Shown here piece after piece: positions 2,454 to 61,918 of a DNA stretch of 64,000 nt. Positions within the stretch are counted from its first letter, which is position 1. Each line of letters begins with the position of its first letter. The position numbers and the translations under genes were made by a program. Source of the stretch: Tateyamaria omphalii (GTDB lineage Bacteria > Pseudomonadota > Alphaproteobacteria > Rhodobacterales > Rhodobacteraceae); the NCBI RefSeq assembly GCF_019802125.1, contig NZ_JAHVHT010000006.1, positions 62,001 to 126,000 of the forward strand. Reading direction: 5' to 3'. The notes beneath the pieces are model-generated. The model was not told where the DNA came from. It did no database searches and saw only the letters and a list, made by a program, of their open reading frames with translations.

Positions 2454-2885
2454 GTGGATAAGTACATCAATCTCATCAAGCTGTCCGTGGGCAGCGACAG
2501 CTATGACGATCTGGTCGCGTGGCAGTCCACGAAACGTGCGCAGACCGATGATGGCTATCCGCGCCATGTGACCCGTATGTGGCCCAAGCGCGAGGCCGAG
2601 ATACTAAATGGTGGGTCGATCTTCTGGGTTGTGAAAGGGGTGCTGACCTGTCGCCAGCGCATTCTGCGGCTGGATGAAGTGATCGGCAGCGACGGCATTC
2701 GCCGCTGCGCCATCGTGTCTGATCCGGAGTTGGTGCGGGTGCAATCGGCGCTCAAGCGACCGTTTCAGGGATGGCGCTATCTGAAGCCCGAAGACAGCCC
2801 GCCGGACCTGCCGAAAGGGCGCGAGCGGGAGGAGCCGCTGCCGGTTGAACTCAATCGGGCGCTGGCCGAGATCGGGGTTCTTTGA
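2454..2885 (+). CDS. DUF1489 family protein
   Basis: This 143-residue protein belongs to the alphaproteobacterial DUF1489 family, whose function is unknown. The family pattern is clear: an N-terminal INLIKLSVGSDSYDDLVAWQ, a central PRHVTRMWPKRE, the FWVVKGVLTCRQRILRLDEV segment, and a C-terminal PFQGWRYLKPEDSPPDL. I chose the GTG at 2454 because GAGAGG lies 7-8 nt upstream and the family usually starts a few residues before the INLIKL strand; an in-frame ATG at 2430 is an alternative. It is divergent from nrdJ and convergent with hisG. No signal peptide or membrane segment is visible, so it is probably cytoplasmic. Confidence 0.8.
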   Translation: MDKYINLIKLSVGSDSYDDLVAWQSTKRAQTDDGYPRHVTRMWPKREAEILNGGSIFWVVKGVLTCRQRILRLDEVIGSDGIRRCAIVSDPELVRVQSALKRPFQGWRYLKPEDSPPDLPKGREREEPLPVELNRALAEIGVL

Positions 2886-3133
2886 GGCGAGAGGTTAACG
2901 CGCCGTGCGGTGCGAAATTCGCGCCCGATTTTGCGAAACTGCACATTTTCGGTCTGAAACTGCGCGTTTTGCACCCCTCGAAAACGCCCGTTTTCAGCCG
3001 GTTTTGAGCAAACTGCACATTTTGACCCGCAAACTGCGTGTTTTGGACCCCAGGCAACCGTTCAGACATCGTTAACGCTCGCCCGGCGTTCATGTTTGCG
3101 CGGGCGCGTTCACTCTTTGGAAAGAGTTGGCCT
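2886..3133. repeat. Intergenic repeat array A (four 15-bp units, 21/53/21 bp spacing)
   Basis: This gene-free stretch lies between the convergent 3' ends of DUF1489 and hisG. Four copies of AAACTGCRYRTTTTS start at 2936, 2957, 3010 and 3031, giving start-to-start distances of 21, 53 and 21 bp. GTTAACG motifs flank the array at 2894 and 3071. A GAAAACG-CC-CGTTTTC dyad sits in the central spacer (2980-2996). The copies are weakly dyad-symmetric about TGC/RYR. The same architecture recurs at 55076-55185. The 21-bp period is two DNA helical turns, which suggests protein binding on one face of the helix; that is inference. No gene product or known element is recognised. Confidence 0.85.
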
Positions 3134-3826
3134 TCAGTCGGCCCCCAGTCGGTCCAGCAGCGTTGCCAGCACCGCGCGCTCCGCATCCGTCACCTCAGCC
3201 ACGCGGCTGCGCCAGAGCGTCGCCTGGCTGGCGAGGATCAACCCGTCGCTCAGGATCTTGAGGTGGTTGGCGCGCAGTGTCTCGCCGGACGAGGTGATAT
3301 CGGCGATGGCCTCTGCCGTCTCGTTCGCGACGGTGCCTTCGGTCGCGCCCTGGCTGTCGACGATCGCGTAGTCAGCCACCCCTGCATCGCGCAGGAAATC
3401 GCGGACGAGCCGGTGGTACTTGGTTGCGATCCGCAGGCGGAAGCCGTGGGCCGCGCGAAAGGCCGCGGCGGCAGCGTCGAGGTCATCGGTCAGGTCCACG
3501 TCGATCCAGGCCTGCGGAACAGCGAGGACAAGGTCGGCGTGACCGAAGCCCATTTCGGCCATCGGTTCGACCTGCTGCTCCCAGAGCGGCAATTTTTCGT
3601 GGATGAGATCTGTGCCGGTCACGCCCAGATGGATGCGCCCAGCGGCGAGTTCGCGCGGCACTTCCCCTGCCGACAGCAGAACAAGCGCCACGCCATCGAT
3701 CCCGTCCACGGCGCCCGCATATTCGCGGTCAGATCCTGTGCGGCTGAGCGTGACGCCGCGCTTTTCGAACCACTGGAACGTCTTGTCCATCAGCCGCCCC
3801 TTGGACGGCACGCCGAGCTTGATCAT
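3134..3826 (-). CDS. hisG: ATP phosphoribosyltransferase catalytic subunit, short form
   Basis: HisG catalyses the first step of histidine synthesis, joining ATP and PRPP. At 230 residues it is the short form, lacking the C-terminal regulatory domain, and so needs HisZ as partner. Visible signatures are the N-terminal KLGVPSKGRLMD, the GVTGTDLIHE loop, and the PRPP-binding region IVDSQGATEGTVANETAEAI. The start overlaps the 3' end of hisZ by 4 nt, with a GGAGGG ribosome-binding site inside hisZ, so the two subunits are probably translationally coupled. It is the last gene of the minus-strand hisS-hisZ-hisG operon. Confidence 0.96.
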   Translation of the reverse strand: MIKLGVPSKGRLMDKTFQWFEKRGVTLSRTGSDREYAGAVDGIDGVALVLLSAGEVPRELAAGRIHLGVTGTDLIHEKLPLWEQQVEPMAEMGFGHADLVLAVPQAWIDVDLTDDLDAAAAAFRAAHGFRLRIATKYHRLVRDFLRDAGVADYAIVDSQGATEGTVANETAEAIADITSSGETLRANHLKILSDGLILASQATLWRSRVAEVTDAERAVLATLLDRLGAD

Positions 3827-24778: not shown

Positions 24779-25055
24779 CTCGTGCCCTCCTGAACCTATC
24801 GCGTGACGCGGGTCAGTCCACCGCAGTCTGGTGCCAGTTTCCGGCAGTGGCGGGCATTTACGCTTTGGTAACACACCGGACCGCACGGTGCGTTAACCAC
24901 GCCAAAGGCGCATCCGGGGGTGTACGGGGGGTGCATGAGGGTTGTACGCCCGGTGCCCCCTGCAAATGCAGGCCATTAAGAGGTTTCAGCACGATTCGCG
25001 CCTTGGGCCCCGTTAACCGTTGCGCGTACGGTGCCCCCGTGCCACGACTTGACCC
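24779..25055. other. Divergent intergenic region with GTTAAC and GTACGG motifs
   Basis: This 277-bp region separates DUF2461 from the aldo/keto reductase. It holds GTTAACC at 24892 and 25012, an ACCGCACGGTGCGTTAACC block, a GCGCGTACGGTGCCCCCG block near 25020, and several GTAC/GTGC tracts. The CGTRCGGTG-plus-GTTAAC pairing is shared with the repeat-array regions at 2886 and 54995. TTAACC half-sites resemble CtrA motifs, but no full TTAA-N7-TTAA is present. No gene is visible. Confidence 0.5.
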
Positions 25056-50342: not shown

Positions 50343-52433
50343 ATGGTTTCGTATGGGCGAGGCCCATCCGACCGAAGCGAGGGGCCAGCCCCTCGCGCTC
50401 CCCGGAATTTTTTTGAACCAGAGAAGAAAGGACTGCAGCGGCTGTTGCGCCCCAAATCCATCGCGGTCATCGGCGGCGGCGCATGGTGTACCTCGGTGAT
50501 CGAGCAGGCGGAACGCTTTGGGTTTGACGGTGCCATCTGGCCCGTGCATCCGACCAAGGCGATGGTCGCGGGCCACGGTGCGTTTCCATCAGTGGATGAC
50601 ATGCCGCACGCCCCGGATGCCGCATTCATCGGCGTGAACCGGTCCGCAACGGTCGAGATCGCCAGCGCGCTGTCCCGGATGGGCGCAGGCGGTGCGGTCT
50701 GTTTTGCCTCGGGTTTTTCCGAAGCGGAGGCCGAAGACGCAGACGCAGCGCGCTTGCAGGAGAAGCTGGTCAGCGTTGCGGGTGACATGCCCATTTTGGG
50801 GCCCAACTGCTACGGCTTCATAAACGCCCTGGATCAGTCCCTGCTCTGGCCGGATCAGCATGGATGCACGCCGGTGGATCGTGGCGTGGCGATCCTGACC
50901 CAAAGTTCGAACATTGCGATCAACCTGACCATGCAGCAGCGCGCCCTGCCGATTGCATACACCGTTACCTGCGGAAACATGGCGCAGACCAGCCAGGCGG
51001 ACATTGCAATGGCACTGCTTGATGACCCGCGCGTGACCGCCATTGGCTTGCATGTCGAGGGGTTCGGTAACCTGCGGGATTGGGAAGGGCTCGCGGCAGC
51101 AGCCCATGCACGCGGCGTGCCAATCGTGGTTCTGAAGGTCGGTGCATCGGATCAGGCGCAGCAGGCAGCCATATCACACACCGCATCTCTTGCCGGGTCG
51201 GACGCCGGGGCGCAGGCCTTTCTGGACCGGCTCGGGATCGCGCGGGTGACCGCCTTGCCGGATCTTCTGGAAACGTTGAAACTGCTCCATCTGAACGGCC
51301 CCCTGCACAGCAATGGAATCGCCTCCATCAGCTGTTCGGGGGGTGAGGCGAGCCTGATGGCGGATATGGCTCATGGCAGCGGCCTGACCTTTCCCGCTTT
51401 GACGGAACGGCAGACCGACGCCCTGCGCGATGCGCTTGGCCCCATGGTCGCACTTGCCAACCCGTTGGATTATCATACTTATATCTGGCGCGATGCGGAT
51501 CGTATGGCGCAGACCTGGGCCGCGATGACGGGCGACGGTATCGGCATGACCCTCTCCATCGTCGACTACCCCACCACAGACGCAACCGACTGGGCTTGCA
51601 CCGTGGACGCAGCGATTGCGGCGCGTGCGATGTCACAAGCGCCCTTCGGCGTTGTCGCAACCCTGCCGGAGTTGATGCCGGCGGACAAAGCCAAGCAATT
51701 GGCAAAGCACGGGGTCGTGCCCTTCTACGGCTTGCGCGAGGCGTTGGAAGCCATAGGCGCGGCCCAGCGGATCGGTGCACCCGACCCATCCCCCATCTGC
51801 TTGCCCGGCATCGCCAAACCGAACATCGTGATGACGGAGGCAGACGCAAAGACCGAGTTGTCGACCTATGGCATTGATGTGCCGCGCAATTTCACTGTGA
51901 GAACGGACGAGGCCACACCCGACACAAACACGCTCACCGGCCCGTTTGCGGTCAAGGGCATCGGCCTGGCGCACAAGACCGAAGCGAATGCCGTGCGGCT
52001 GAACATCGCCGCCCACGACATAACCGCGATTGCAAAGGACATCGGGACGCCCGAAGTTTTAGTCGAGGAGATGGTGACAGATGGCGTCACCGAGTTATTG
52101 GTTGGCATCTTGCGCGATCCTGCGCATGGCTTTGTCCTGACCATCGGGGCGGGCGGCGTGCTGACCGAACTGATGCAGGATACGATACATCTGTTGCTGC
52201 CGGTGCGCGCGGCGGATGTGGACGAGGCCCTGAACCGTCTGCGCTGCGCACCACTTCTGGACGGCTACCGTGGTAAGCCCTCTGCCAATCGTCAAGCCGT
52301 GGTCAAGGCTGTCCTTGCCATGCAGGACTACGTCCTTGCCCATGCAGACACTGTCAGCGAGGTTGAAGTGAACCCGCTGATCTGCACCCCCACCCGCGCC
52401 GTTGCTGTCGACGCGCTGATACGAAAGGCCTGA
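50343..52433 (+). CDS. ADP-forming acyl-CoA ligase (acetyl-CoA-synthetase-like)
   Basis: A 696-residue protein with the fused NDP-forming acyl-CoA synthetase layout: CoA-binding LLRPKSIAVIGGGAWCTSVIEQ, succinyl-CoA-ligase-like middle (VAILTQSSNIAINLTMQQRA, VLKVGASDQAQQAAISHTASLAG; the His in SHTAS is the phospho-His candidate) and ATP-grasp C-terminal part (DAKTELSTYGIDVPRN, GPFAVKGIGLAHKTEANAVRLN, GVTELLVGILRDP). The first 35 residues (MVSYGRGPSDRSEGPAPRAP then RNFFEPEKKG) come from an interspersed repeat, so the true or ancestral start may be at LQRLLRPKS. It probably activates the same acid that the neighbours use, in place of the AMP-forming CaiC. Confidence 0.9.
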   Translation: MVSYGRGPSDRSEGPAPRAPRNFFEPEKKGLQRLLRPKSIAVIGGGAWCTSVIEQAERFGFDGAIWPVHPTKAMVAGHGAFPSVDDMPHAPDAAFIGVNRSATVEIASALSRMGAGGAVCFASGFSEAEAEDADAARLQEKLVSVAGDMPILGPNCYGFINALDQSLLWPDQHGCTPVDRGVAILTQSSNIAINLTMQQRALPIAYTVTCGNMAQTSQADIAMALLDDPRVTAIGLHVEGFGNLRDWEGLAAAAHARGVPIVVLKVGASDQAQQAAISHTASLAGSDAGAQAFLDRLGIARVTALPDLLETLKLLHLNGPLHSNGIASISCSGGEASLMADMAHGSGLTFPALTERQTDALRDALGPMVALANPLDYHTYIWRDADRMAQTWAAMTGDGIGMTLSIVDYPTTDATDWACTVDAAIAARAMSQAPFGVVATLPELMPADKAKQLAKHGVVPFYGLREALEAIGAAQRIGAPDPSPICLPGIAKPNIVMTEADAKTELSTYGIDVPRNFTVRTDEATPDTNTLTGPFAVKGIGLAHKTEANAVRLNIAAHDITAIAKDIGTPEVLVEEMVTDGVTELLVGILRDPAHGFVLTIGAGGVLTELMQDTIHLLLPVRAADVDEALNRLRCAPLLDGYRGKPSANRQAVVKAVLAMQDYVLAHADTVSEVEVNPLICTPTRAVAVDALIRKA
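50377..50429 (+). repeat. Interspersed repeat copy at the CoA ligase start
   Basis: GCGAGGGGC-CA-GCCCCTCGC (50377-50396) is a 9-bp hairpin, followed by GCTCCCCGGAATTTTTTTGA and ACCAGAGAAGAA. This is the most complete copy of the hairpin-plus-tail form in the window. It lies inside the open frame of the CoA ligase. Confidence 0.8.
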
Positions 52434-52436
52434 GCC

Positions 52437-53216
52437 ATGAGTCCCATAAAAACAAGGCGCGAGGGCGCAATTTTGGAAGTCACGTTGGACCGGCCCAAGG
52501 CCAATGCCATCGACCTCGCCACCAGCCGGATCATGGGTGAGACGTTCATGGCGTTTCGTGACGATCCTGAGCTGCGCGTCGCGATCGTGACCGGGGCAGG
52601 AGAGAAGTTTTTCTCGCCCGGTTGGGACCTGAAGGCGGCGGCCGATGGTGATGCTGTAGACGGGGATTATGGCGTCGGCGGCTTTGGTGGGTTGCAGGAA
52701 TTGCGTGGGTTGAACAAGCCGGTGATTGCGGCGGTGAATGGCATTGCTTGCGGCGGTGGACTGGAGTTGGCGCTGAGCGCGGACATGATCCTTGCCGCCG
52801 ATCACGCGACCTTTGCCCTGCCGGAGATACGGTCAGGTACGGTGGCGGATGCGGCCAGCATCAAGCTGCCGAAGCGCATCCCCTATCACATCGCGATGGA
52901 GCTGTTGTTGACCGGGCGATGGTTCGATGCAGAGGAAGCGCACCGCTGGGGGTTGGTCAATGAAATCGTTTCAGCGCAAGGCCTTATGGATCGCGCGTGG
53001 GAATTGGCGCGGTTGATCGCGTCGGGGCCGCCGCTGGTTTACGCGGCGATCAAGGAAGTGGTGCGGGACGCAGAGGATTCCAAGTTTCAGGACGCGATGA
53101 ATCGGATCACCAACAGCCAGTTGCCGACGGTCGAGACGCTCTATCGGTCCGAGGACCAATTGGAAGGGGCGCGCGCGTTTGCGGAAAAGCGCGACCCAGT
53201 CTGGAAAGGGCGCTAG
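52437..53216 (+). CDS. Carnitinyl-CoA dehydratase-like enoyl-CoA hydratase
   Basis: A 259-residue crotonase-family enzyme. The oxyanion-hole segments are GEKFFSPGWDLKAAADG and AAVNGIACGGGLELALSADMILAADHATFALPEIRSG; the two glutamates in LELAL and LPEIR sit where crotonases use them. The SPGWDLKAA segment and C-terminal EDSKFQDAMNRI resemble CaiD, which hydrates crotonobetainyl-CoA. It starts 3 nt after the ligase stop and overlaps the convergent MauG-like gene by 4 nt. Last gene of the carnitine-type operon. Confidence 0.9.
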   Translation: MSPIKTRREGAILEVTLDRPKANAIDLATSRIMGETFMAFRDDPELRVAIVTGAGEKFFSPGWDLKAAADGDAVDGDYGVGGFGGLQELRGLNKPVIAAVNGIACGGGLELALSADMILAADHATFALPEIRSGTVADAASIKLPKRIPYHIAMELLLTGRWFDAEEAHRWGLVNEIVSAQGLMDRAWELARLIASGPPLVYAAIKEVVRDAEDSKFQDAMNRITNSQLPTVETLYRSEDQLEGARAFAEKRDPVWKGR

Positions 53217-54523
53217 TTCGAAATCCGTGGATCGACGGGCAGACCGCTGGGCACGGACGTGGGCACGCCTAGCCTATCGGTGTTCGCTGTCTCGCCCGTG
53301 AGCGCGTGCAAAAACGCAATGATGTCATCGACTTCCGTGTCGCTGAGCGCTATCGGCTGAAGCTGCACCGCCGCACGCTGGCGCGCCATCTCACGGCTGT
53401 CCTGCCACACCATGAAGTCGATAGCGGCAAGCCATGGGACATCGGGTAGCGCTGCTGTTTCGCGCGTCCAATTGTCCAGTGATTGCAAGGGGTTGAGGTG
53501 GTGGCGCACAATCCCTTCAAGCGTGGGATAGGCGCCATTGTGACCGTAGGGTGCGGTCAGGGCCACATTCCGCAGCATGGGTGTCTTGAAGGCATAGGCA
53601 TCCTCGAGCGCGTCGCTTTCACCCATGCGCCCCACATCGCGAACCATCGGGTCGAAACGTCGGGTGCGACCGGGGCCGAAGGGCGGCAGGCCGAGGGCGT
53701 GGAATTGCTGGTCCGTCATCAGTGGGCCGCTGTGGCAGGTGCTGCAATTGGCCCTACCGTAGAACAGGTCAAGCCCTTGTTTTTGCCGCGTATTGAGGGC
53801 GTTTTGGTCGCCCGCGAGAAAGGCGTCGAACGGGCTGTCCGTGCTGGTCCATTCCCAGATCATGAAGGCGCTCAGCGCGTTGGCGATGTCGGCGATCGTG
53901 ATGTCTTTGGCGCGTGAGATGTGGGGGTAGGCTGCGGCAAATCCTTCGGCATAGGCGGGGATGTGGCGGATGCGGTCAGCGAGGATGGGCCAGGCGTGGT
54001 CCATACGCTGATGGATGGCGCCGGCGATCTCGTTTTCCTTGGGATTTCCGGCCATTTCGAATTGGGCAACCAGTGGGAAAATTGCCTGTGCGGCCAATAG
54101 GTTATCCAAGCCCTCGGGCAGCCATTCCTCGGCCGGGGAGTTGAAACCGTTCTCGTACGTGTTAGCGACGCTGAGGCGGCCGTCGTGGAAGATGGTGTGC
54201 AGGTCCTTGGCGCCCAGATTCCACAGGCCGGGTGCATTGCGGGGGATGCGTTTGCGGATGCGGTTGTCGCCCGTGCCAGCGGTGCGCTGCGGGCCCAATC
54301 CTTCGCCGCCTTCGCCGATGCCGAGGCTCAGTCCGTCGGCGGTTCCAAGGTCGGGGTGATGGCACGTGGAGCAGGCGATATTGCGGTTGCCGGAGAGGAT
54401 GCGATCGTAGAACAGAAGCTGCCCGAGTTTGGCTTGCGCCGGGTCGACGGCGATGAAATCATCCGGGGTGAGAGGACGCGGCAGATCGTCTGCAAAGGCA
54501 GGTGTCGTGGCGAGGAGGATGAT
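53213..54523 (-). CDS. MauG/cytochrome c peroxidase-like di-heme protein, start uncertain
   Basis: A periplasmic di-heme peroxidase. Heme motifs are CSTCHHP and CSTCHSG. Further family signs are LGQLLFYDRILSGNRNIAC, RIPRNAPGLWNLGA, TIFHDGRLSVANTYENG, KTPMLRNVALTAPYGHNG and the C-terminal LSDTEVDDIIAFLHAL. A signal-peptide-like IILLATTPAFADDLP precedes the mature part, but no ATG, GTG or TTG lies in frame at its head; the frame stays open to an ATG at 54949 deep inside the divergent Sel1-like gene. I give 54523 only as an approximate start. Either a rare start codon, a truncated 5' end, or a sequence error is likely. Confidence 0.78.
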   Translation of the reverse strand: MILLATTPAFADDLPRPLTPDDFIAVDPAQAKLGQLLFYDRILSGNRNIACSTCHHPDLGTADGLSLGIGEGGEGLGPQRTAGTGDNRIRKRIPRNAPGLWNLGAKDLHTIFHDGRLSVANTYENGFNSPAEEWLPEGLDNLLAAQAIFPLVAQFEMAGNPKENEIAGAIHQRMDHAWPILADRIRHIPAYAEGFAAAYPHISRAKDITIADIANALSAFMIWEWTSTDSPFDAFLAGDQNALNTRQKQGLDLFYGRANCSTCHSGPLMTDQQFHALGLPPFGPGRTRRFDPMVRDVGRMGESDALEDAYAFKTPMLRNVALTAPYGHNGAYPTLEGIVRHHLNPLQSLDNWTRETAALPDVPWLAAIDFMVWQDSREMARQRAAVQLQPIALSDTEVDDIIAFLHALTGETANTDRLGVPTSVPSGLPVDPRISN

Positions 54524-54994
54524 ATGCGCAAACTTGCGATAGCCCTTGTTTTTATGGCGTTTCCGGCGCTTGCCGAGATCGAGGAAGCCCGCGATCTGAT
54601 GGAGGCCGGGGCGTACAAGGCGGCCTATGATGCGCTGTGGCCCGCGGCCCGGTCGGGCAATGCGGATGCCGAGGAATTGATTGGGGTCATGTACGCTTTG
54701 GGCCTGGGCGTCGAGCGGGATGATGAGAGGGCGTTCGAATGGTATTTGCGGTCGTCCATGAAGGGGCATCCGGGCGCGCAATCCGGTGTCGGATGGTACT
54801 ATGAAGTGGGGCGCGGAATGCCCGCGCCGGACCTTGTCCGCGCCTATATGTGGTACACTCTGAGCGCGATTGGAGGCGACCCGGACGCCGCGATTTCGCT
54901 GGAAGAGGTGGTCAAGAAAATGACCAAGGACGAGATTGATCGGGCGCATATTCTGGTCGCTGATTACAAGGTCTGGATGTATCCGTTCCGCTGA
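54524..54994 (+). CDS. Sel1-repeat (TPR-like) secreted protein
   Basis: A 156-residue protein with signal peptide MRKLAIALVFMAFPALA. The rest is Sel1-like repeats: AAYDALWPAARSGNADAEELIGVMYALGLGVERDDERAFEWYLRSSMKGHPGAQSGVGWYYEVGRGMPAPDLVRAYMWYTLSAI, each with the A-x-x-x-Y/G-x-G pattern. It ends in a charged helix EEVVKKMTKDEIDRA. GAGGAGGATGAT precedes the ATG. Sel1 proteins usually act as protein-binding scaffolds; this one would be periplasmic. It is divergent from, and head-to-head abutting, the MauG-like gene. Confidence 0.87.
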   Translation: MRKLAIALVFMAFPALAEIEEARDLMEAGAYKAAYDALWPAARSGNADAEELIGVMYALGLGVERDDERAFEWYLRSSMKGHPGAQSGVGWYYEVGRGMPAPDLVRAYMWYTLSAIGGDPDAAISLEEVVKKMTKDEIDRAHILVADYKVWMYPFR

Positions 54995-55348
54995 GTTTGG
55001 CAGCAGATTTTCAGCTTGGGAAGCCTGATCACCGTACGGTGGCGTTAACGCTGCGTACGGCGGTTAATTTCAGGTAAAACGCATATTTTGCGGGGAAAAC
55101 TGCATATTTTCAGTGGTCCCGACGAGGGCATTTTGGAGCTGTTTTTGGGAAACTGCGAAGTTTGACCCCGAAACTGCGCATTTTGCTCTGCGTATGGCCG
55201 TTAACGGAGCGTTCATTTCTGGCCCGCGTTAAGGTTTGATGGCGGGCGGTAACTTTTGGTTAGGGGATGGCGGGGTGAAACCCCGCCCTACCGACAGTGC
55301 GCACCCGCCGCTTGCGTTGCGGCGTGGTGATAGGAGCCGGGATCGCCG
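54995..55348. repeat. Intergenic repeat array B (four 15-bp units, 21/53/21 bp spacing)
   Basis: This 354-bp gene-free region lies between convergent genes (Sel1 and PEP-mutase-like). Units of AAACTGCRYATTTTG type start at 55076, 55097, 55150 and 55171, so distances are 21, 53 and 21 bp, exactly as in array A. GTTAACG-type motifs flank it (55044 and 55200), with a CCGTACGGTGGCGTTAACG block at the left. The best copy (55171) is AAACTGCGCATTTTG, nearly palindromic about TGC|GCA. A separate GGCGGGGT-GAA-ACCCCGCC hairpin lies at 55269-55287 near the 3' end of the minus-strand gene. No gene is seen. Confidence 0.87.
55269..55287. terminator. GC hairpin at the 3' end of the PEP-mutase-like gene
   Basis: GGCGGGGT and ACCCCGCC form an 8-bp stem with a GAA loop, about 60 nt past the minus-strand stop. 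It lacks a T-run, so intrinsic termination is uncertain; it may be another dispersed hairpin repeat. Confidence 0.45.
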
Positions 55349-56113
55349 TCAGCTTGCGGCGGCTGCTTTGTAACCCTCGGCCGCTTGTGTCATCGCGTTG
55401 GCGAAGGGGCCGGGGCCGTAGCTGGCGCGGGCGACGCCGAGGGATGCCACTTCGGATATGGAGCCCAGCGCGCCGCGCATCATCACGTTGACGGGCAAGG
55501 CGGTGCTGGCGCAGACCTTTTCGATCATTGCGTGATCCGTGAGGCCCGGAATGAAGAAGCCGCTTGCGCCTGCATCGGCATAGGCGGCGGCACGGTCGAG
55601 CGTTTCGCCCATCTGGTCGGCGTGAGCGTCGGGCTTGGCCTTGAGGAACAGGTCTGTGCGGGCATTGATGAAAAGCGGAACGCCCGCGGCGTCCGCGGCT
55701 GCGCGCACCGCCCTGATCCGGGCCGCTTGCGTGTCGATGTCGTGCAGGCCCTCGCCGCCCACGATCTGATCCTCGAAATTCAGGCCGATGGCGCCGGTGC
55801 CGATCAGTGCCGTGATGTTTGCAGCCAAGGGTTCTGGATCGGTGGCATAGCCCCCTTCGAAGTCGATGGAGACCGGCAGGTCCGTGCTGTCCACGATGCG
55901 CTTGGCAATAGGCAAGAGGACGTCGAGCGGCAGCTTCTGACCGTCGGGAAAGCCCTGCGCTTCGGCCACGGACCAGCTGCCGGTCGCGATGGCCTTGGCC
56001 CCTGCCCCGGCGACCGCCTTGGCCGAGCCTGCGTCCCAGATGTTGTAGATCACCACCGGCGTTCCAGGAACGTGAAGAGCGGCGAAGGCTGTGGCTTTGT
56101 CTGTTTGGGACAT
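55349..56113 (-). CDS. Isocitrate lyase/phosphoenolpyruvate mutase family protein
   Basis: A 254-residue ICL/PEPM-superfamily TIM-barrel enzyme. TPVVIYNIWDAGSAKAVAGAGAKAIATGSWSVAEAQGFPDG starts the barrel; LPVSIDFEGGYA and AIGLNFEDQI hold the metal-binding Asp/Glu. The K-K-C-G-H catalytic loop of true isocitrate lyases is absent, as in the 2-methylisocitrate-lyase-like and oxaloacetate-decarboxylase-like subgroups. The ATG at 56113 (MSQTDKATAFA) fits the family; the longer frame is not conserved. It is downstream of and co-directional with the AraC regulator. Substrate unknown. Confidence 0.87.
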   Translation of the reverse strand: MSQTDKATAFAALHVPGTPVVIYNIWDAGSAKAVAGAGAKAIATGSWSVAEAQGFPDGQKLPLDVLLPIAKRIVDSTDLPVSIDFEGGYATDPEPLAANITALIGTGAIGLNFEDQIVGGEGLHDIDTQAARIRAVRAAADAAGVPLFINARTDLFLKAKPDAHADQMGETLDRAAAYADAGASGFFIPGLTDHAMIEKVCASTALPVNVMMRGALGSISEVASLGVARASYGPGPFANAMTQAAEGYKAAAAS

Positions 56114-56181
56114 GGGGCACCCGTTTTGTTGTGCGATGACTGCCGGCACCATTGCCTGTGTGCAGGTCGGGGGCAAGTGGG

Positions 56182-56973
56182 TCAGGCCGCAGGGGCCGGC
56201 AGTGTCAGCATCCGTGTCAATCCCGACAGGCCGCGTGTTGGAGTGATGCCGAACACCGTGCCAGCCGTTCGGGCAAGGTGCGCGGCGTCCGCAAACCCGG
56301 CTTCGACACCCGCCAGCCCGATCTGTTCGCCCTTGTGTGCCATGCGGGCGGCAGAGACGATGGCGGCCCAGATCTTGAACTTGCGGAAGGTCTGGCCTGT
56401 CGTGGCCTTGAAATGCCGCAGCGCCTGCGTGCGTTCGAGCCCCAGATCCTGCGCAAGGTCCAGTTGCGACAGGCGCGCGAAGGGTTCATCGTAGAGACGG
56501 CTGACGATCTGCATCACCGCCGGGTCCGGGGGCGTGGTGGTCGTGTCCAGCAGGCGGCGGAACCGATCGATGCTGGCGGAGTCGTCGCTGTGGAACGCCT
56601 GCGGCAGCGCGTGCCACTCGGGCGGCAGGGCTGCAAAATCCGGGCTGTGGTCATGCAGGCGCACGCCGTCGAGGTAGATCACGTCGGCGCCGCCCTCCCG
56701 GACATGGACGCGGTGGGGCACGCCGGGTGTGATGCAGAGGGCAGCCGTGTCGATTGCGTCCTGATCGTTCGAGACGCGCACGGGGCTTTGTCGCCCTACG
56801 ATCACGCAGGTCATCAGGTTTTCATGCAGGGCCAGTTCGCCTGCATCGAAGGAGAACAGGTGGTTGCGGAAGCAGTGTTTGGGGGGTGTCACGGTTGGTT
56901 TCGTCGGACCTGTATGGAAATGGCTGGGGCCAGAATGGCGGATCACTGGCCGGGTTTGGGGAAATAGTTGCAC
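56182..56973 (-). CDS. AraC-family transcriptional regulator
   Basis: A 263-residue regulator. The N-terminal part is a cupin-like sensor (HLFSFDAGELALHENLMTCVIVG, CITPGVPHRVHVREGGADVIYLDGVRLHDHSP). The AraC DNA-binding half runs DLAQDLGLERTQALRHFKATTGQTFRKFKIWAAIV then EAGFADAAHLARTAGTVFGITPTRGL, with two helix-turn-helix motifs. It lies 68 bp upstream of the PEP-mutase-like gene, so it may control that gene, or the divergent dienelactone-hydrolase-like gene. The ATG at 56973 has no strong ribosome-binding site. Confidence 0.88.
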   Translation of the reverse strand: MQLFPQTRPVIRHSGPSHFHTGPTKPTVTPPKHCFRNHLFSFDAGELALHENLMTCVIVGRQSPVRVSNDQDAIDTAALCITPGVPHRVHVREGGADVIYLDGVRLHDHSPDFAALPPEWHALPQAFHSDDSASIDRFRRLLDTTTTPPDPAVMQIVSRLYDEPFARLSQLDLAQDLGLERTQALRHFKATTGQTFRKFKIWAAIVSAARMAHKGEQIGLAGVEAGFADAAHLARTAGTVFGITPTRGLSGLTRMLTLPAPAA

Positions 56974-57064
56974 GTTTCTTCAAGCTGCGGGTGCGAAACA
57001 TGTGAAACCTTTGCGTAAATCTGCAAGGGTGGCCGGGTTGTCCCTGTTCCATGACGTGTTCCGC

Positions 57065-57808
57065 ATGAGCCAAGCCGTTGATCTGTCCGCCTTTCATTCG
57101 CCTGTCAGCGTCGGCACCGCCTTGAGCCTGCCCGTCTATGTCAGCAAGACGGGAGATCGGCCGCTGGTCGTGCTGCACGAGTTGCCGGGCATGTCGCCGT
57201 CTTTCGTCGACTATTGCACGCGCATGACCGGCGAGGGGTTCAAGGTCTACATGCCCCTGCTGTTCAAGGCGCCGGGGACGGAGATGGGGATGCTCGGCTG
57301 TGCCGCATTCTGCCTGAGCCGGGAGTTTCGCGCGCTTTTTGCCGCCAGCGGGCCATCCCGTGCGCGGCCGATTGCGGCGTGGATCCTGGAGCTTGTGCAG
57401 AAGGTGGCCGAGGACAACCCGGGCGCCGCGATCGGCACCATCGGCATGTGCATGACGGGTGGTTTTGCCATTGTCGGGATTGCCGATCCGCGGGTGCAGG
57501 CCGTCGTTGCCTGTCAGCCATCGGCGCCGTTCTTTCGTGAGATCGAGACGCTGGGGCTGTCCGAGGCCGAGCGTGACAGCGTGCGGGCGGGCAAGACCGG
57601 CAAAACAATCCCCTGTGCCAAGGCATACCGGTACGAAAAGGATCGGATCAGCCGCGAGGCGCATATGCGGGCCGCGCAGGATCTGCTGGGCCCGTCGCTT
57701 CATCGCTATCCCGACCTGCCGGGCAAGGGCCATGCCACGTTGACCACCCAGACGGCCAGCCCGGAGGTCTATGCCGACGTGCTGACCTTTCTGAACGCGC
57801 GGCTTTGA
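57065..57808 (+). CDS. Dienelactone hydrolase-family protein
   Basis: A 247-residue alpha/beta hydrolase. The nucleophile is Cys in AIGTIGMCMTGGFAIV, and the acidic and His members are near the end (LPGKGHATLTTQ). RPLVVLHELPGMSPSFVDYC is the oxyanion-loop region. Dienelactone hydrolases open lactone rings in aromatic catabolism, but many homologues have other roles. I chose the ATG at 57065 (MSQAVDLSAF); a GTG at 57056 is possible. It is divergent from the AraC gene. Confidence 0.88.
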   Translation: MSQAVDLSAFHSPVSVGTALSLPVYVSKTGDRPLVVLHELPGMSPSFVDYCTRMTGEGFKVYMPLLFKAPGTEMGMLGCAAFCLSREFRALFAASGPSRARPIAAWILELVQKVAEDNPGAAIGTIGMCMTGGFAIVGIADPRVQAVVACQPSAPFFREIETLGLSEAERDSVRAGKTGKTIPCAKAYRYEKDRISREAHMRAAQDLLGPSLHRYPDLPGKGHATLTTQTASPEVYADVLTFLNARL

Positions 57809-57944
57809 CAAGGCCGGGCGGGCCGTCTTGCACGTTCCTTCAAGTCCGGACGCATCGGCCCGTGCATGATGGCCGGAAAGCGCACACCACTCACGGCGAC
57901 ATTCTGTCGGGCCAGTGCGGCATCTCTGGCGGGAAGGACCGATC

Positions 57945-58901
57945 ATGAAACGGCTGTTTGCGGGGCTTGCTCTGGCCCTGATACTGTGTGCGGTGATCGT
58001 GGCAGCCGCTTGGGTTCTGGTGCCGACACGCGTGGCGGCGGTGCTGTTGCATCTGAATTCCGCCTCCGCGGGGTTGAGTGCAGGTACGGTATCGACCGAT
58101 GTCGGAGACATTCACTATCTTGAGGGGGGTGCGGGCGAGACCGTTGTCCTGATCCATGGCATCTATGCCCGCAAGGAGCATTGGGTCGAGCTGGCCCGGT
58201 CGCTTGTGGATGCCTACCACGTGGTTGCCATCGACTTGCCGGGGTTCGGCGACAACGCGCGGTTGTCGGATGACGCCTATTTGCTGGACCGTCAGGCCGA
58301 GAATTTGCGGGCCGTCCTGCAGGCTCTTGAGGTGGAGAAGGCCCATATCGGGGCCAATTCCATGGGCGCGTATGTGTCGGCATTGCTGGCAGAGGCGCAT
58401 CCGGACCTCGTGTCGAGCATCGCCTTTGTCGGCAGCCCGCTGGGCGTTCCGACCCCTGTGCAAAGCGATATGGATGTGGCGCGCGCCGGGGGAGACACGC
58501 CGCTGGTGGTGCAAAGCGAAGCTGATTTCGTGGCGCGCAATGATTGGCTATCGCCGCAGATCCCCTATGTGCCCGGGCCGATCCTGACCATGTGGATGCA
58601 GGACGAGGTGGCGACAGGCGATCACAATGCGCGCATCTGGGACGTGGTGCATCACCAATCCGATGTGCCGACGGTGCTGGAGCTCGCGCCGTCCCTGACC
58701 ATGCCGTCGCTTGTCATCTGGTGTGCCCCTGATCGCATCTTTCACGTGAGCGGCGCGGCGATGCTGCATCGGGCCCTGCCCGCCTCGACCCTCGTGACGC
58801 TTGATGGATGCGGACATGTGCCGATGCTGGATCGACCCCGTACGGTGGCCGAGGTCTATCAGGCGTTTCTGCGCGATGTGGGCGGGGATGCCGCTGAATA
58901 G
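57945..58901 (+). CDS. Alpha/beta-fold hydrolase, membrane-anchored
   Basis: A 318-residue serine hydrolase. An N-terminal hydrophobic segment (LFAGLALALILCAVIVAAAWVLV) suggests export or anchoring. The core has VVLIHGIYARKEHWVELARSL (oxyanion loop), DLPGFGDNARL, the nucleophile elbow IGANSMGAYVSALLA (Ser in N-S-M-G), and late TLDGCGHVPMLDRPRT with the catalytic His. GGAAGGACCGATC precedes the ATG at 57945. Ester or lactone substrate unknown. Confidence 0.9.
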   Translation: MKRLFAGLALALILCAVIVAAAWVLVPTRVAAVLLHLNSASAGLSAGTVSTDVGDIHYLEGGAGETVVLIHGIYARKEHWVELARSLVDAYHVVAIDLPGFGDNARLSDDAYLLDRQAENLRAVLQALEVEKAHIGANSMGAYVSALLAEAHPDLVSSIAFVGSPLGVPTPVQSDMDVARAGGDTPLVVQSEADFVARNDWLSPQIPYVPGPILTMWMQDEVATGDHNARIWDVVHHQSDVPTVLELAPSLTMPSLVIWCAPDRIFHVSGAAMLHRALPASTLVTLDGCGHVPMLDRPRTVAEVYQAFLRDVGGDAAE

Positions 58902-58988
58902 CCGCGCGCATGCTCCGAAAACACCGCATTCCGGCAGCAGGATTGGCCGGGACCAACCGCGCCTTTGACGCCGACACCAGAGACACAC

Positions 58989-59852
58989 ATGCGGATTGAC
59001 GGACATATCGCTGTGAGCGCCGGGACGCTGTGCCTGGTCGCGATCATGGTTGCCGGGCTGATCCATCAGGGGGTGGATTGGTGGACGATCCCGTTCCTCG
59101 CCATCTTCGTTCCGCTGTTTGGCGGCATCCTGACCGTGTGTTTTTCGATCTATCGCAGCGAGCGGTTTCGCATCAGGGCACGTCGCACGCATCCGGATCA
59201 ACCGTGGATGTGGGACCGCCGGTGGCAGTCGGAGGTCCTGCCCTCGCGCGGCGCGTCCGAGTTCTGGGGCCTGTTGGCGATGACCGTCGTGCTGATGTCC
59301 TTTGCCGTCTCCGGATTGGCCGCGATGCGCGAGGGGTGGGTCGATGGAAACCTCTGGACCCTTCTGGGCCTGATCCCGCTTGGCGCGGCGCTGTATTACG
59401 GGCGCGTCACGTGGCGCGCCTGGCTGGCATGGCGCCTGTCGCGCCATGTGACACTGGTGCTTGAGACGCGACCGGCGCGCGTCAGCTCCGATTTTCGCGC
59501 ACGGCTTGAGTTGGAGCGGCACGTGTCGGACAGGATCACCGCGCGACTTGAGCATAGCACGGTGCGTCAGGTGATGGATGGCGGGGAATACGTGTATTCG
59601 ACTGTCACCACCCGGACTGTGCCGGCGCATGTCGCACTACAGGTTGATGCCGGCGGTCAGCCCGTTGCCTGTATCTCGGCCCATATGCCGGTGGGCAGCC
59701 CGGAAACCTCCTGGACCGAAACGGAGGCGCGGGGATGGTGGGATATGGTTGTGCAGTTCGGCGGAGCGCGGTCTGACCTCGAGCTGCGATATGAAGTCCC
59801 GGTGGCAGGTTCGGCCAAGCAGGTTCCGGATGAACCGGGGTTGTCAGAATGA
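58989..59852 (+). CDS. Membrane protein of unknown function (DUF3592-like)
   Basis: A 287-residue protein with four likely membrane segments: GTLCLVAIMVAGLIHQG, TIPFLAIFVPLFGGILTVCF, FWGLLAMTVVLMSFAVSGLA, and LWTLLGLIPLGAALYY. The C-terminal half is soluble, beta-rich (EYVYSTVTTRTVPAHVALQV... DLELRYEVPV) and could be periplasmic or cytoplasmic. It resembles DUF3592-type proteins in layout, but I would not assign a function. The ATG at 58989 follows an AGACACAC stretch with no clear ribosome-binding site. It is 88 bp after the hydrolase gene. Confidence 0.75.
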   Translation: MRIDGHIAVSAGTLCLVAIMVAGLIHQGVDWWTIPFLAIFVPLFGGILTVCFSIYRSERFRIRARRTHPDQPWMWDRRWQSEVLPSRGASEFWGLLAMTVVLMSFAVSGLAAMREGWVDGNLWTLLGLIPLGAALYYGRVTWRAWLAWRLSRHVTLVLETRPARVSSDFRARLELERHVSDRITARLEHSTVRQVMDGGEYVYSTVTTRTVPAHVALQVDAGGQPVACISAHMPVGSPETSWTETEARGWWDMVVQFGGARSDLELRYEVPVAGSAKQVPDEPGLSE

Positions 59853-60113
59853 CCCGGCGTCCTCGGGGCGACGATGGCTGCGGCAGCGCCGATGCTTTGT
59901 TCAGGCCCGGGCGCAGATTGGCGGATTTCAGCCGACGGGTTTTAGGGCGCACCGCGGTGGGTTGTGAGAATCTGAGCCAGCTTCTACGCCTAGGGCAGCC
60001 TTGCAACATGAGCGTGCCGCCAATTTCAGGCGTCCAGCACTTGCGAGGCAAGTATTTGTAAAATCAGTAAAATACCGTTCCAATCAAAACTCCTGTTTCA
60101 AGGAATCCAAAAA

Positions 60114-60950
60114 ATGAGCAGTACTCTCTCCAAGCAGATGTTTGGAGGCCTGAAGGCATGTCTTTTTGCCATGTCCGGCCTTGTTCTTTCAGTATCCGGC
60201 GCCGTTGCCGGCCCCATCGACGTGTCGCAAGCCGTTGAGGCGGCAGGCGTCGATCCCGAAACCTCGACCATTGTTGTGCAGCGATTGTCGGACGATCAGG
60301 TCTGGGTCAGCAATGCAGACCGGTCGGCGCAACGCTTTGCGCCCGCATCCACGTCCAAGGTTCCGCACACCCTGATTGCCCTCGAAACCGGCGTTGCCGC
60401 ACCGGAGACGATGTTTGACTGGGATGGCCAGCACCGCGTCTTTGACGGGTGGAACCGGGATCATACCCTCACCTCGGCTTTCCGAAGCTCGGTTGTGTGG
60501 GTGTATCAGGAAATCGCGCAGCGCGTCGGGTTGGCGGGCATGACCGAATGGCTGGGCCGCTTTGATTACGGCAATGCCGAGACCGGAACAGAGGCGACGC
60601 TGACCACCTATTGGCTGGACGATACGTTGCAGATCACCGCCCTTGAGCAAATCGCGTTTCTGGAACGGCTGGCGGAGCGTGACCTGCCCCTGTCCGACGC
60701 GACCTATGCCGCCGCCGACACGATCATGCAGTCGGATGCGGGCGATGGTTGGACCATGTACAGCAAGACCGGCTGGCGCTTCAGCAGGACCGACATGGAT
60801 GTCGGCTGGTATGTGGGCTGGGTGCGGTGCAGCGCTGATACCTATGTGTTCGCGCTGAACCTGGACATGCCGGATCGCTCCTATCTCGAGCTGCGGAAAC
60901 CGACCTCGCGGGCGGTACTGGACGCCGTGGGCGCGTTCGAGTGCCAGTGA
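60114..60950 (+). CDS. Class D beta-lactamase-like serine hydrolase
   Basis: A 278-residue OXA-type protein with signal peptide (FGGLKACLFAMSGLVLSVSGAVAG). The expected active-site elements all appear: S-x-x-K in RFAPASTSKVPHTLIALE (STSK where OXA enzymes usually have STFK), S-x-V in FRSSVVWVYQE, the FDYGN motif, YWLDD for the class D YWLEG/FWLDG box, and KTGW. It should therefore form a serine acyl-enzyme. It overlaps the next gene's start region and heads an operon with a deacetylase and a glycosidase-like gene, so cell-wall or polysaccharide sensing is as plausible as drug hydrolysis. Confidence 0.9.
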   Translation: MSSTLSKQMFGGLKACLFAMSGLVLSVSGAVAGPIDVSQAVEAAGVDPETSTIVVQRLSDDQVWVSNADRSAQRFAPASTSKVPHTLIALETGVAAPETMFDWDGQHRVFDGWNRDHTLTSAFRSSVVWVYQEIAQRVGLAGMTEWLGRFDYGNAETGTEATLTTYWLDDTLQITALEQIAFLERLAERDLPLSDATYAAADTIMQSDAGDGWTMYSKTGWRFSRTDMDVGWYVGWVRCSADTYVFALNLDMPDRSYLELRKPTSRAVLDAVGAFECQ

Positions 60951-60961
60951 GCGGCTTTGAC

Positions 60962-61918
60962 ATGGCCCGGCGCGTTCTGCGCGCCGGTGCTTTCATGGCG
61001 GTGATGTTTGCGTCCTTCGCAGGCGCGGTATCGGCCGCGGAAACGCGCCGCATCTCCTTTTCCTTTGATGATGCGCCACGGGGCGACGGTCCGCTGTTGA
61101 GCGGAGCGGAACGCACCGAGAAACTGGTTGCGGGACTTGCCAACGCAGGCATCGAAGGGGCCGCGTTTTTCGTGCTGACGCAGTCGCTGGCGCACCACCG
61201 GGACGGTGCCGACAGGCTGCGCACCTATACGGATGCGGGCCATGTTCTGGCAAACCACACCCACACGCATCCGCGCCTGCGCGAAACAGACCCCGACAGC
61301 TATCTTGCCGACATCGACAGGGCGGCGGCGATACTGGAGGGTTTCGACAACGTGGCCCCCTATTTTCGCTTTCCCTATCTGGATGAGGGCGACACGCGCG
61401 ACAAACGGTTGGCTGTTGTTGCCGGGTTGGCGGCGCGCGGCCTGCAGAACGCCTATGTCACCGTCGACACCTATGACTGGTACATGCAGGCCCTCGTGAA
61501 TGAGGCGGTCGAAGCGGGTCATCCGCTGGATATGGACCGGCTTGGACAGGTCTATGTCGAGGTGCTGATCGACACGATCGAATTCTACGATGCGTTGGCC
61601 GTGCAGACGCTGGGGCGGCATCCGGACCATGTGCTGTTGCTGCACGAGAACGACCTGGCAGCGCTTTTTGTCGAAGATTTGGCGGGGGCGCTGCGCGAGG
61701 ACGGCTGGGTCATTGTTCCGGCCATCGAAGCCTATACCGATGAGATTGCCCGCGTCCGACCCGACACGCAGTTCAACGGACAGGGCCGCATTGCTGCCAT
61801 TGCCCATGCCGCGGGCGTGGCCCCAAGGCAATTGGTGTCACCGGGCGAAGACGAGGACCGCTTGAGGGCAGCCTTTGTCGCGCGTGGTCTGCTGCCGGTG
61901 GAGGGGTCATCAAAATGA
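60962..61918 (+). CDS. Polysaccharide deacetylase (NodB-homology domain) protein
   Basis: A 318-residue secreted deacetylase. Signal peptide ARRVLRAGAFMAVMFASFAGAVSA. The NodB motifs are RRISFSFDDAPRGDG (the catalytic Asp pair), HVLANHTHTHPRL (metal-binding His pair), and APYFRFPYLDEGD. The late LLLHENDLAALF supplies the usual His. It would remove N-acetyl groups from a glycan such as peptidoglycan or an exopolysaccharide. A GTG at 60947 in a GTGA overlap with the beta-lactamase gene is an alternative start. The glycosidase-like gene follows with a 4-nt overlap. Confidence 0.9.
   Translation: MARRVLRAGAFMAVMFASFAGAVSAAETRRISFSFDDAPRGDGPLLSGAERTEKLVAGLANAGIEGAAFFVLTQSLAHHRDGADRLRTYTDAGHVLANHTHTHPRLRETDPDSYLADIDRAAAILEGFDNVAPYFRFPYLDEGDTRDKRLAVVAGLAARGLQNAYVTVDTYDWYMQALVNEAVEAGHPLDMDRLGQVYVEVLIDTIEFYDALAVQTLGRHPDHVLLLHENDLAALFVEDLAGALREDGWVIVPAIEAYTDEIARVRPDTQFNGQGRIAAIAHAAGVAPRQLVSPGEDEDRLRAAFVARGLLPVEGSSK

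Follow-up and report, generated by a model that had tools for sequence, protein, structure and literature searches.

In a 64,000-nucleotide stretch of the Tateyamaria omphalii genome, hereafter the window (C6:62001-126000 of the 4.49-Mb, 12-contig assembly that we denote G000), four copies of a short sequence lie between the convergent DUF1489 gene (+) and hisG (-), and four more occupy a similar position between a Sel1-repeat gene (+) and a convergent PEP-mutase-family gene (-), all neighbours being assigned by Pfam. What kind of element is built in this manner, how far does it extend beyond these two sites, and what could it do to the chromosome that carries it?

Architecture and genomic setting of the array

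The four units of the first group, array A (core at 2936-3044, + strand; units at 2936-2949, 2957-2970, 3010-3023 and 3031-3044), are all exact matches to AAACTGCRYRTTTTS, with the starts 2936, 2957, 3010 and 3031 given in the initial annotation and a spacing of 21/53/21 bp. The recurrence of this spacing that had been claimed for array B (core at 55076-55184, + strand; units starting at 55076, 55097, 55150 and 55171) is real, the units at 55097 and 55171 matching exactly and those at 55076 and 55150 with two mismatches each. At up to two mismatches, AAACTGCRYRTTTTS has 12 matches in the window against 0.88 expected, a number reached in 0 of 100 shuffles; these are the four units of array A, the four units of array B, two lone matches (43077 and 45630) and two units of array B read again on the opposite strand because the unit is nearly palindromic. 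In the whole genome, the pattern AAACTGCRNRNTTTN has 76 matches, compared with a single one for the same pattern written backward, and these group into 26 loci on contigs C1, C2, C3, C4 and C6. Four units could be fitted at every locus, with 36 to 40 of the 40 defining bases; the spacing is 21/53/21 in 25 arrays and 21/52/21 in one alone (L043), and the 21-bp step within each unit pair is present in 26 of 26. The genome search, a check named beforehand, reveals a dispersed element, not units at random spacing. A matrix scan of 1.62 Mb found the 26 arrays, 25 of them at more than 100 bits and the one with the 1-bp shorter middle at 34 bits, and, beyond these, zero loci above 10 bits, that is, no relics.

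The unit is a 14-bp near-palindrome with the consensus AAA-CTGC-RYR-TTTT over the 26 copies, the odd units leaning to AAACTGCACATTTT or AAACTGCGAAGTTT and the even units to AAACTGCGYRTTTT. When the 26 copies are aligned by anchoring on the first unit, agreement is seen at the units and at A/T tracts in the middle (AAA at offsets 45-47, TTTT at 55-58 and TTTT at 66-69; 2981-3005, + strand, in array A), and A/T tracts recur every ~10.5 bp across the ~110 bp of the array, which can be described as two 35-bp phased arms round a 39-bp centre (35/39/35), with phased A/T continuing outside. The array is a DNA-level, oriented, multi-site element whose near-palindromes face the same side of the helix at intervals of two, five and two turns, and the periodicity of the A/T tracts suggests that this DNA is bent or wrapped. 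The proposal of a helically phased array of the protein-binding type, rather than an ordinary operator, is supported.

The flanks of the 26 arrays do not align base by base; TTAA sites sit there at helical steps, both upstream (n=27, R 0.79 at 10.5 bp) and downstream (n=43, R 0.74 at 9.7 bp and 0.55 at 10.5 bp), with P<0.001 versus uniform positions on either side. Among these phased sites in the window is the GTTAAC downstream of array A (3071-3076, +), and array B is followed by GTTAAC at 55200 and GTTAAGG at 55228 (55200-55234, +). A further flanking site, the C-box TTAACGCACCGTACGGTG, occurs with at least 13 of 18 matches no more than 150 bp upstream of 20 of the 26 arrays, forward in 15 and reversed only in 5, against a background of 14 in 3000 random 150-bp stretches that reach 13 matches on one strand; the C-box is also phased (22 CGTRCG sites, R 0.80). 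Its representatives in the window are TTAACGCGCCGTGCGGTG upstream of array A (2895-2912, +) and TTAACGCTGCGTACGGCG upstream of array B (55045-55062, +). In other genera, C-box matches at two mismatches or fewer occur in 34 of 61 genomes, in most of which the backward control is about equally frequent; C-box-like sites exceed this control in G058 (9 vs 0) and G052 (10 vs 3), where they perhaps accompany other cores.

With respect to genes, the arrays are mostly intergenic, and many directly follow gene 3' ends. Their contexts are convergent in 11, tandem sense in 8, tandem antisense in 5 and divergent in 2 cases, as counted with a home-made gene caller that misassigned the gene 5' of array B, so that 11 is at least one too low. 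The location between convergent gene ends described in the initial annotation is therefore accurate for arrays A and B and breaks down as a rule, applying to about half of the 26. The gene on the 5' side is sense in 19 of 26, and 16 of these sense genes stop 35-74 bp ahead of the array. An ORF of 134 aa without a Pfam family (L054:2577-2981, +) starts 27 bp after the end of one array and may be where a regulator is encoded. The suggestion of a dispersed-RNA element is not supported: at the gathering threshold, Rfam yields one tRNA only in the window and no array match, and RNAalifold of 25 arrays returns a single 4-pair helix at -0.41 kcal/mol, below column shuffles (-0.02, sd 0.09) but negligible, and on these two grounds a structured or dispersed RNA was rejected.

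Strand-asymmetric domains on the 3' side of the arrays

At all 26 loci, the strand of the array is the sign of the GC skew of the surrounding 5 kb. We profiled the skew over 20 kb on each side of the 26 arrays, and farther 3' for some, in 2-kb bins oriented on the array strand. The mean is +0.01 to +0.03 from -20 to -6 kb and +0.036 at -4 kb (21/26 positive), then stands at +0.106 at -2 kb (25/26), +0.109 at 0 (26/26) and +0.119 at +2 kb (25/26), and thereafter falls to +0.085 at +10 kb (25/26) and +0.055 at +18 kb (22/26), remaining at +0.055 or above and positive in at least 22 of 26 arrays through that bin. Beyond +20 kb, with data for 9 to 19 arrays that are partly within the domains of other elements, the mean is +0.01 to +0.07. 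At 250-bp resolution, the climb in skew begins at about -3 kb and ends at the array, with a roughly level stretch after it as far as +4 kb. On average, then, the array stands where a one-sided, strand-asymmetric domain begins, which extends ~20 kb in the 3' direction and includes up to ~3 kb of 5' DNA. Individual arrays vary, with weak or short domains at no fewer than eight (L031, L032, L033, L046, L048, L050, L054 and L055), including L054 and L055, which point toward each other across 20 kb. The named assemblies contribute 45 array rows, for the most part orthologs of G000 arrays and not an independent sample. The -1 kb bin is positive in 44 of these rows, the averages from 0 to +4 kb are +0.09 to +0.11, and that at -4 kb is +0.005; no row was excluded, neither L136, which is cut (score -9), nor the low-scoring L094, L097, L139 and L142 (24 to 53).

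The G+C content hardly shifts in the domains, where G and T replace C and A. In the first 5 kb downstream, the GC3 skew on the array strand is +0.19 in sense genes and +0.33 in antisense genes, compared with -0.01 and +0.11, respectively, from -20 to -5 kb, and the excess of T over A at third positions rises likewise 3' of the arrays. Third codon positions, with their bias in sense and antisense genes alike, rule out gene orientation as the cause of the skew. The step itself also distinguishes arrays from other skewed DNA: the 3'-minus-5' difference in skew is +0.064 at the arrays (23/26 positive) versus -0.025 at control positions, and the array value was reached in 0 of 20000 resamples of these controls (4000 positions at least 5 kb from arrays with a local skew of at least 0.08 over 2 kb, oriented by that skew).

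For replication, the direction was inferred from the polarity of the KOPS-like motif GGGNAGGG, which is strongly polar on C1, C3, C4 and C6 and weak as a guide on C2. The polarity of this motif flips near 1.25 Mb on C1, which points to a terminus, and, less clearly, near 0.3 Mb on C2, which points to an origin. Array orientation follows the inferred replichore in 18 of 26 cases and opposes it in 8, and the domain is present in both sets; the 8 discordant arrays are all positive at 0-4 kb (mean +0.075), with a mean of -0.016 from -12 to -4 kb. The replichore is accordingly rejected as the cause of the array strand. A fork barrier was rejected by reasoning, because the domain keeps the same side whatever the inferred direction of the fork. 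No single polar motif dominates in a way that could lie behind the skew, the KOPS motif being mildly array-oriented (67 vs 44 downstream, 45 vs 39 upstream). The idea of a segregation element or terminus marker is likewise not sustained, as the arrays sit near the inferred origin as well as near the inferred terminus and agree with the inferred replichore to the limited extent just described.

Array-bearing and array-free relatives

The element is confined to a narrow lineage. A two-unit pattern with up to one mismatch occurs in 1 of 394 family genomes, namely, G000; within the genus, one or more matches at two mismatches or fewer occur in 11 of 20 genomes (a single poor one in G418), and all controls are zero. 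A contig scan returned 67 stretches, of which 45 come from five Tateyamaria assemblies (ANG-S1, syn59, T. omphalii, and isolates 4-94 and 4-55) and the remaining 22 are scattered in unrelated organisms. These five assemblies supply homologues at the same spacing. T. omphalii KCTC 12333 carries arrays, and there are sister species with and without them. In another member of the genus, G419, the units are palindromic, of the AAACTGCGCAGTTT, AAACTGTACAGTTT and AAACTGYRCAGTTT type, and the 21-bp step is kept: the motif drifts and the geometry stays. The unit is therefore probably the site of a dimeric protein, drifting between species.

Around the arrays, the nucleotide identity of G000 and the named Tateyamaria assemblies is 74-94%. 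With L136 left out, 44 named loci were examined; 43 map to G000 DNA, and 41 of these 43 to a locus with a G000 array, a proportion biased upward in that the G000 DNA compared was centred on G000 arrays (L135 lacks an ortholog in this DNA, and L132 and L142 map where there is no recognised G000 array). From these 41, 36 array pairs were retained (L097, L112, L139 and L143 left out, L094 dropped by score), which represent 20 loci of G000, several species being available for some of them. Identity between species is 96.5% at the nine invariant unit positions, 88.5% over all unit positions, 77.8% in the middle A/T tracts, 56.0% at other spacer positions, and 68.0% (5') and 60.1% (3') in the 60-bp flanks. 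The spacers thus are near saturation in sequence (56%) and nearly always keep their length: selection holds the units together with their phase.

In G407, a relative from the same genus, the array pattern has no match, and much of C6 can be aligned colinearly with it at ~80% identity, which amounts to a natural experiment, of one relative and three loci of the AAACTGC class plus one of a second class described below. At the sites of arrays A and B, G407 has 5 and 40 bp where G000 has 257 and 330; extra G000 stretches also occur without arrays, with three of the ten gaps listed against G407 lying at recognised elements. In aligned bases, the skew of G000 minus that of G407 is +0.06 to +0.14 in 10 of 11 2-kb bins, and +0.02 in the other, from 61 to 83 kb of C6 around array A (65 kb). 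Between 83 and 112 kb, the mean difference is +0.004, with individual bins ranging from -0.08 to +0.06. Around array B (117 kb), all 9 bins with data between 113 and 137 kb lie at +0.045 to +0.15, and past the array at 207 kb, all 6 bins between 209 and 221 kb lie at +0.02 to +0.10. The array-linked skew is, in other words, absent from G407 at all three. Within the window, the domain of array A occupies 1-21000, with G and T in excess on the + strand, its 3' end lying near 83 kb of C6 (~21 kb of the window) in the G407 alignment, which starts at ~62 kb of C6; the domain of array B occupies 51000-64000 (+) and, compared with G407, runs to at least ~137 kb of C6.

The changes from G407 to G000 in the 3' domain of array A are one-sided (A>G/T>C 1.9, C>G/G>C 1.8, C>T/G>A 1.6), and the same classes are balanced (1.0) between domains. 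Divergence from G407 is not clearly raised in the domains (identity 0.77-0.85 inside vs 0.80-0.83 outside), and a strongly mutagenic process is therefore not evident. Relative to the 5' baseline, the array effect is +0.07 to +0.10 through the first 10 kb, more than the mean skew of G407, -0.026 over 400 kb; an ordinary fork therefore would not suffice. The order in which array and skew were gained is inferred.

The same comparison uncovered a second class of elements. A negative skew difference between G000 and G407 at 153-159 kb of C6, where there is no AAACTGC array, led to a stretch of 437 bp in G000 versus 49 bp in G407 that contains four 11-bp units, GTGTCACCCCC, CGTGCACCATG, CGTACACCCCC and TGTGCACCCCC, together with a C-box. 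This element (C6:157366-157435, - strand), with 11-bp units of the GTRCACCCCC type, has counterparts at 17 further G000 loci, for a total of 20 pattern matches at 18 loci, and four more (L274, L276, L278 and L280) in another genus, G038; in all, 2 of 149 family genomes match the pattern. The second-class elements often carry a C-box, and those whose surroundings were profiled lie at GC-skew peaks of their own strand: the own-strand skew is positive in 11 of 11 at -2 and at -1 kb, 10 of 11 at 0, 10 of 12 at +1 kb and 12 of 12 at +2 kb, and the peak is short, from about -3 to +4 kb. A related second-class element is present in G407, and the window itself holds a degenerate member at 24879-24960 (- strand), with four 11-bp units at about 24917-24960 and the C-box TTAACGCACCGTGCGGTC at 24879-24896, near a change of skew sign at 22-25 kb. 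The C-box may thus be common to a wider set of elements, of which the AAACTGC array supplies one core.

Known systems, candidate mechanisms and implications

Plasmid iteron origins consist of several repeats at about two-turn spacing on one helix face, and the arrays are like them in their repeat step; they differ by their 26 chromosomal copies, near-palindromic units, fixed 53-bp central step and the lack of any rep gene noticed. No initiator or rep gene was noticed among the translated neighbours of the 26 arrays, read by eye over the first 400 residues each, and there is none next to arrays A and B, where Pfam identifies the four neighbours as DUF1489, HisG, Sel1 and PEP_mutase. The sites known as matS, SlmA and Noc sites and KOPS are palindromic or oriented motifs in tens of chromosomal copies, a copy number similar to that of the arrays, which differ by their four-unit fixed geometry. 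Terminus sites of the matS type are set aside, given that arrays on five contigs, near both inferred origin and inferred terminus, do not mark one macrodomain, and so are polar sites of the KOPS type, given that just 18 of 26 arrays follow the inferred replichore, versus the strong polarity of GGGNAGGG. As the initial annotation had held, there is no family that we can name: none of those considered showed all of its tested defining features in the arrays. In the open-licence literature, the titles and abstract openings among the matches listed describe no such element and no array-started skew domains.

The reading that we tentatively favour, plausible and still well short of assured, is that a DNA-protein assembly at the array launches a polar, strand-unequal DNA transaction, perhaps limited, one-way DNA synthesis. 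A dimeric protein would bind the array units, and the resulting assembly would start a process that treats the two strands unequally and fades after ~20 kb, most likely strand displacement or DNA synthesis of limited extent in one direction, begun in the manner of an iteron origin or by recombination priming. The array strand would assume a leading-strand-like role, with a 3' end prepared upstream, which would correspond to the ~3-kb ramp, and then extended downstream, along the long plateau. We infer both that the array causes the domain and that the process is polar DNA synthesis or strand displacement. Several observations weigh against such launched synthesis, namely, the eight or more arrays with weak or short domains, the fading of the domain after ~20 kb where a normal fork would run on, the size of the array effect, too large for an ordinary fork, the absence of an initiator gene noticed by eye beside the arrays, and, for a form that involves error-prone repair, the lack of clearly raised divergence in the domains. 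A broader version, which we consider unlikely, would have dozens of dispersed, oriented mini-origins with different cores (the AAACTGC four-unit array and the 11-bp GTRCACCCCC type), each launching short one-way synthesis or strand displacement, independently of oriC, so frequently that the composition of the kilobases beyond it (~20 kb in the AAACTGC class) is set by this process.

Two rivals to launched DNA synthesis would let a different polar process start at the array. The array could be a pac- or oriT-like site for one-way export of chromosomal DNA, for example, by a gene transfer agent or a relaxase, that fades over ~20 kb, with same-strand uptake leaving the bias. A one-sided ~20-kb domain independent of gene direction and inferred replication direction is what such a start, directional and fading with distance, would produce, some phages (SPP1-like) are described in PMC6854486 as picking bent DNA for the start of packaging, and an RcGTA-type cluster is reported in a Tateyamaria genome (PMC10582014); yet export would not predict the ~3-kb ramp 5' of the array, rare transfer is, by reasoning, seemingly too weak to set base composition, and the arrays differ from known starts in their many chromosomal copies, the known GTA small terminase being reported without a DNA-binding domain. 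We regard this export as improbable. Slightly lower we place transcription, by which the array would make RNA polymerase resistant to termination or start ~20-kb transcripts in the 3' direction that expose the non-template strand. The sign of the skew fits the non-template strand, and the predominance of sense genes that stop shortly before the array is in line with this; however, the genes 3' of the arrays are not co-oriented (sense 47 and antisense 74 within 0-5 kb; sense 178 and antisense 177 within 5-20 kb), a scan of window positions 2500-3500, around array A alone, found no promoter or terminator pattern, the 5'-side ramp is also seen where the 5' gene is antisense (L034 and L051), and the same upstream region in G407 is without such skew.

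The other two rivals take the strand bias to be secondary or fortuitous, and we hold both for still less probable. Under the first, the array is a strong DNA gyrase site, its two A/T-phased arms round a ~39-bp centre wrapping on gyrase and setting a supercoil domain. By dimensions, 35/39/35 bp can be likened to the 130-bp gyrase motif of 47 + 36 + 47 obtained by Topo-Seq (PMC12393610). Strong gyrase sites and BIME-REP elements also resemble the arrays in their phased A/T and G/C over ~110-130 bp, in having two arms and a centre, and in often following genes, as many arrays directly do; the arrays differ by their base-specific, near-palindromic units and oriented ~20-kb strand-bias domain. The base-level conservation of the units and the palindromic G419 version point instead to a protein that reads sequence, and a gyrase site offers no reason for a one-sided 20-kb strand bias. 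The least probable of all appears to be a selfish repeat of the MITE or REP kind, dispersed by insertions that coincide with local strand bias by chance. It would fit the lineage-restricted, multi-copy, mostly intergenic distribution and the extra DNA of G000 at the sites of arrays A and B, yet other extra stretches lack arrays; moreover, the copies are alike only in units and A/T tracts and have left no relics in 1.62 Mb, on which grounds membership in MITE or REP repeats was rejected, 41 of 43 mapped named loci fall at a G000 array locus in the upward-biased comparison, the units are conserved between species, and G407 has no prior skew at the sites of arrays A and B.

Replication from oriC and transcription are the usual explanations for compositional asymmetry between the strands of bacterial chromosomes. 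In the present case, a selected element of ~110 bp predicts both the sign and the start of ~20-kb asymmetry domains regardless of oriC replication and transcription. The sister species with and without arrays, and T. omphalii KCTC 12333 among those with them, make direct testing possible. If the array is the cause of these domains, an unrecognised polar process would be acting on the chromosome of these bacteria.
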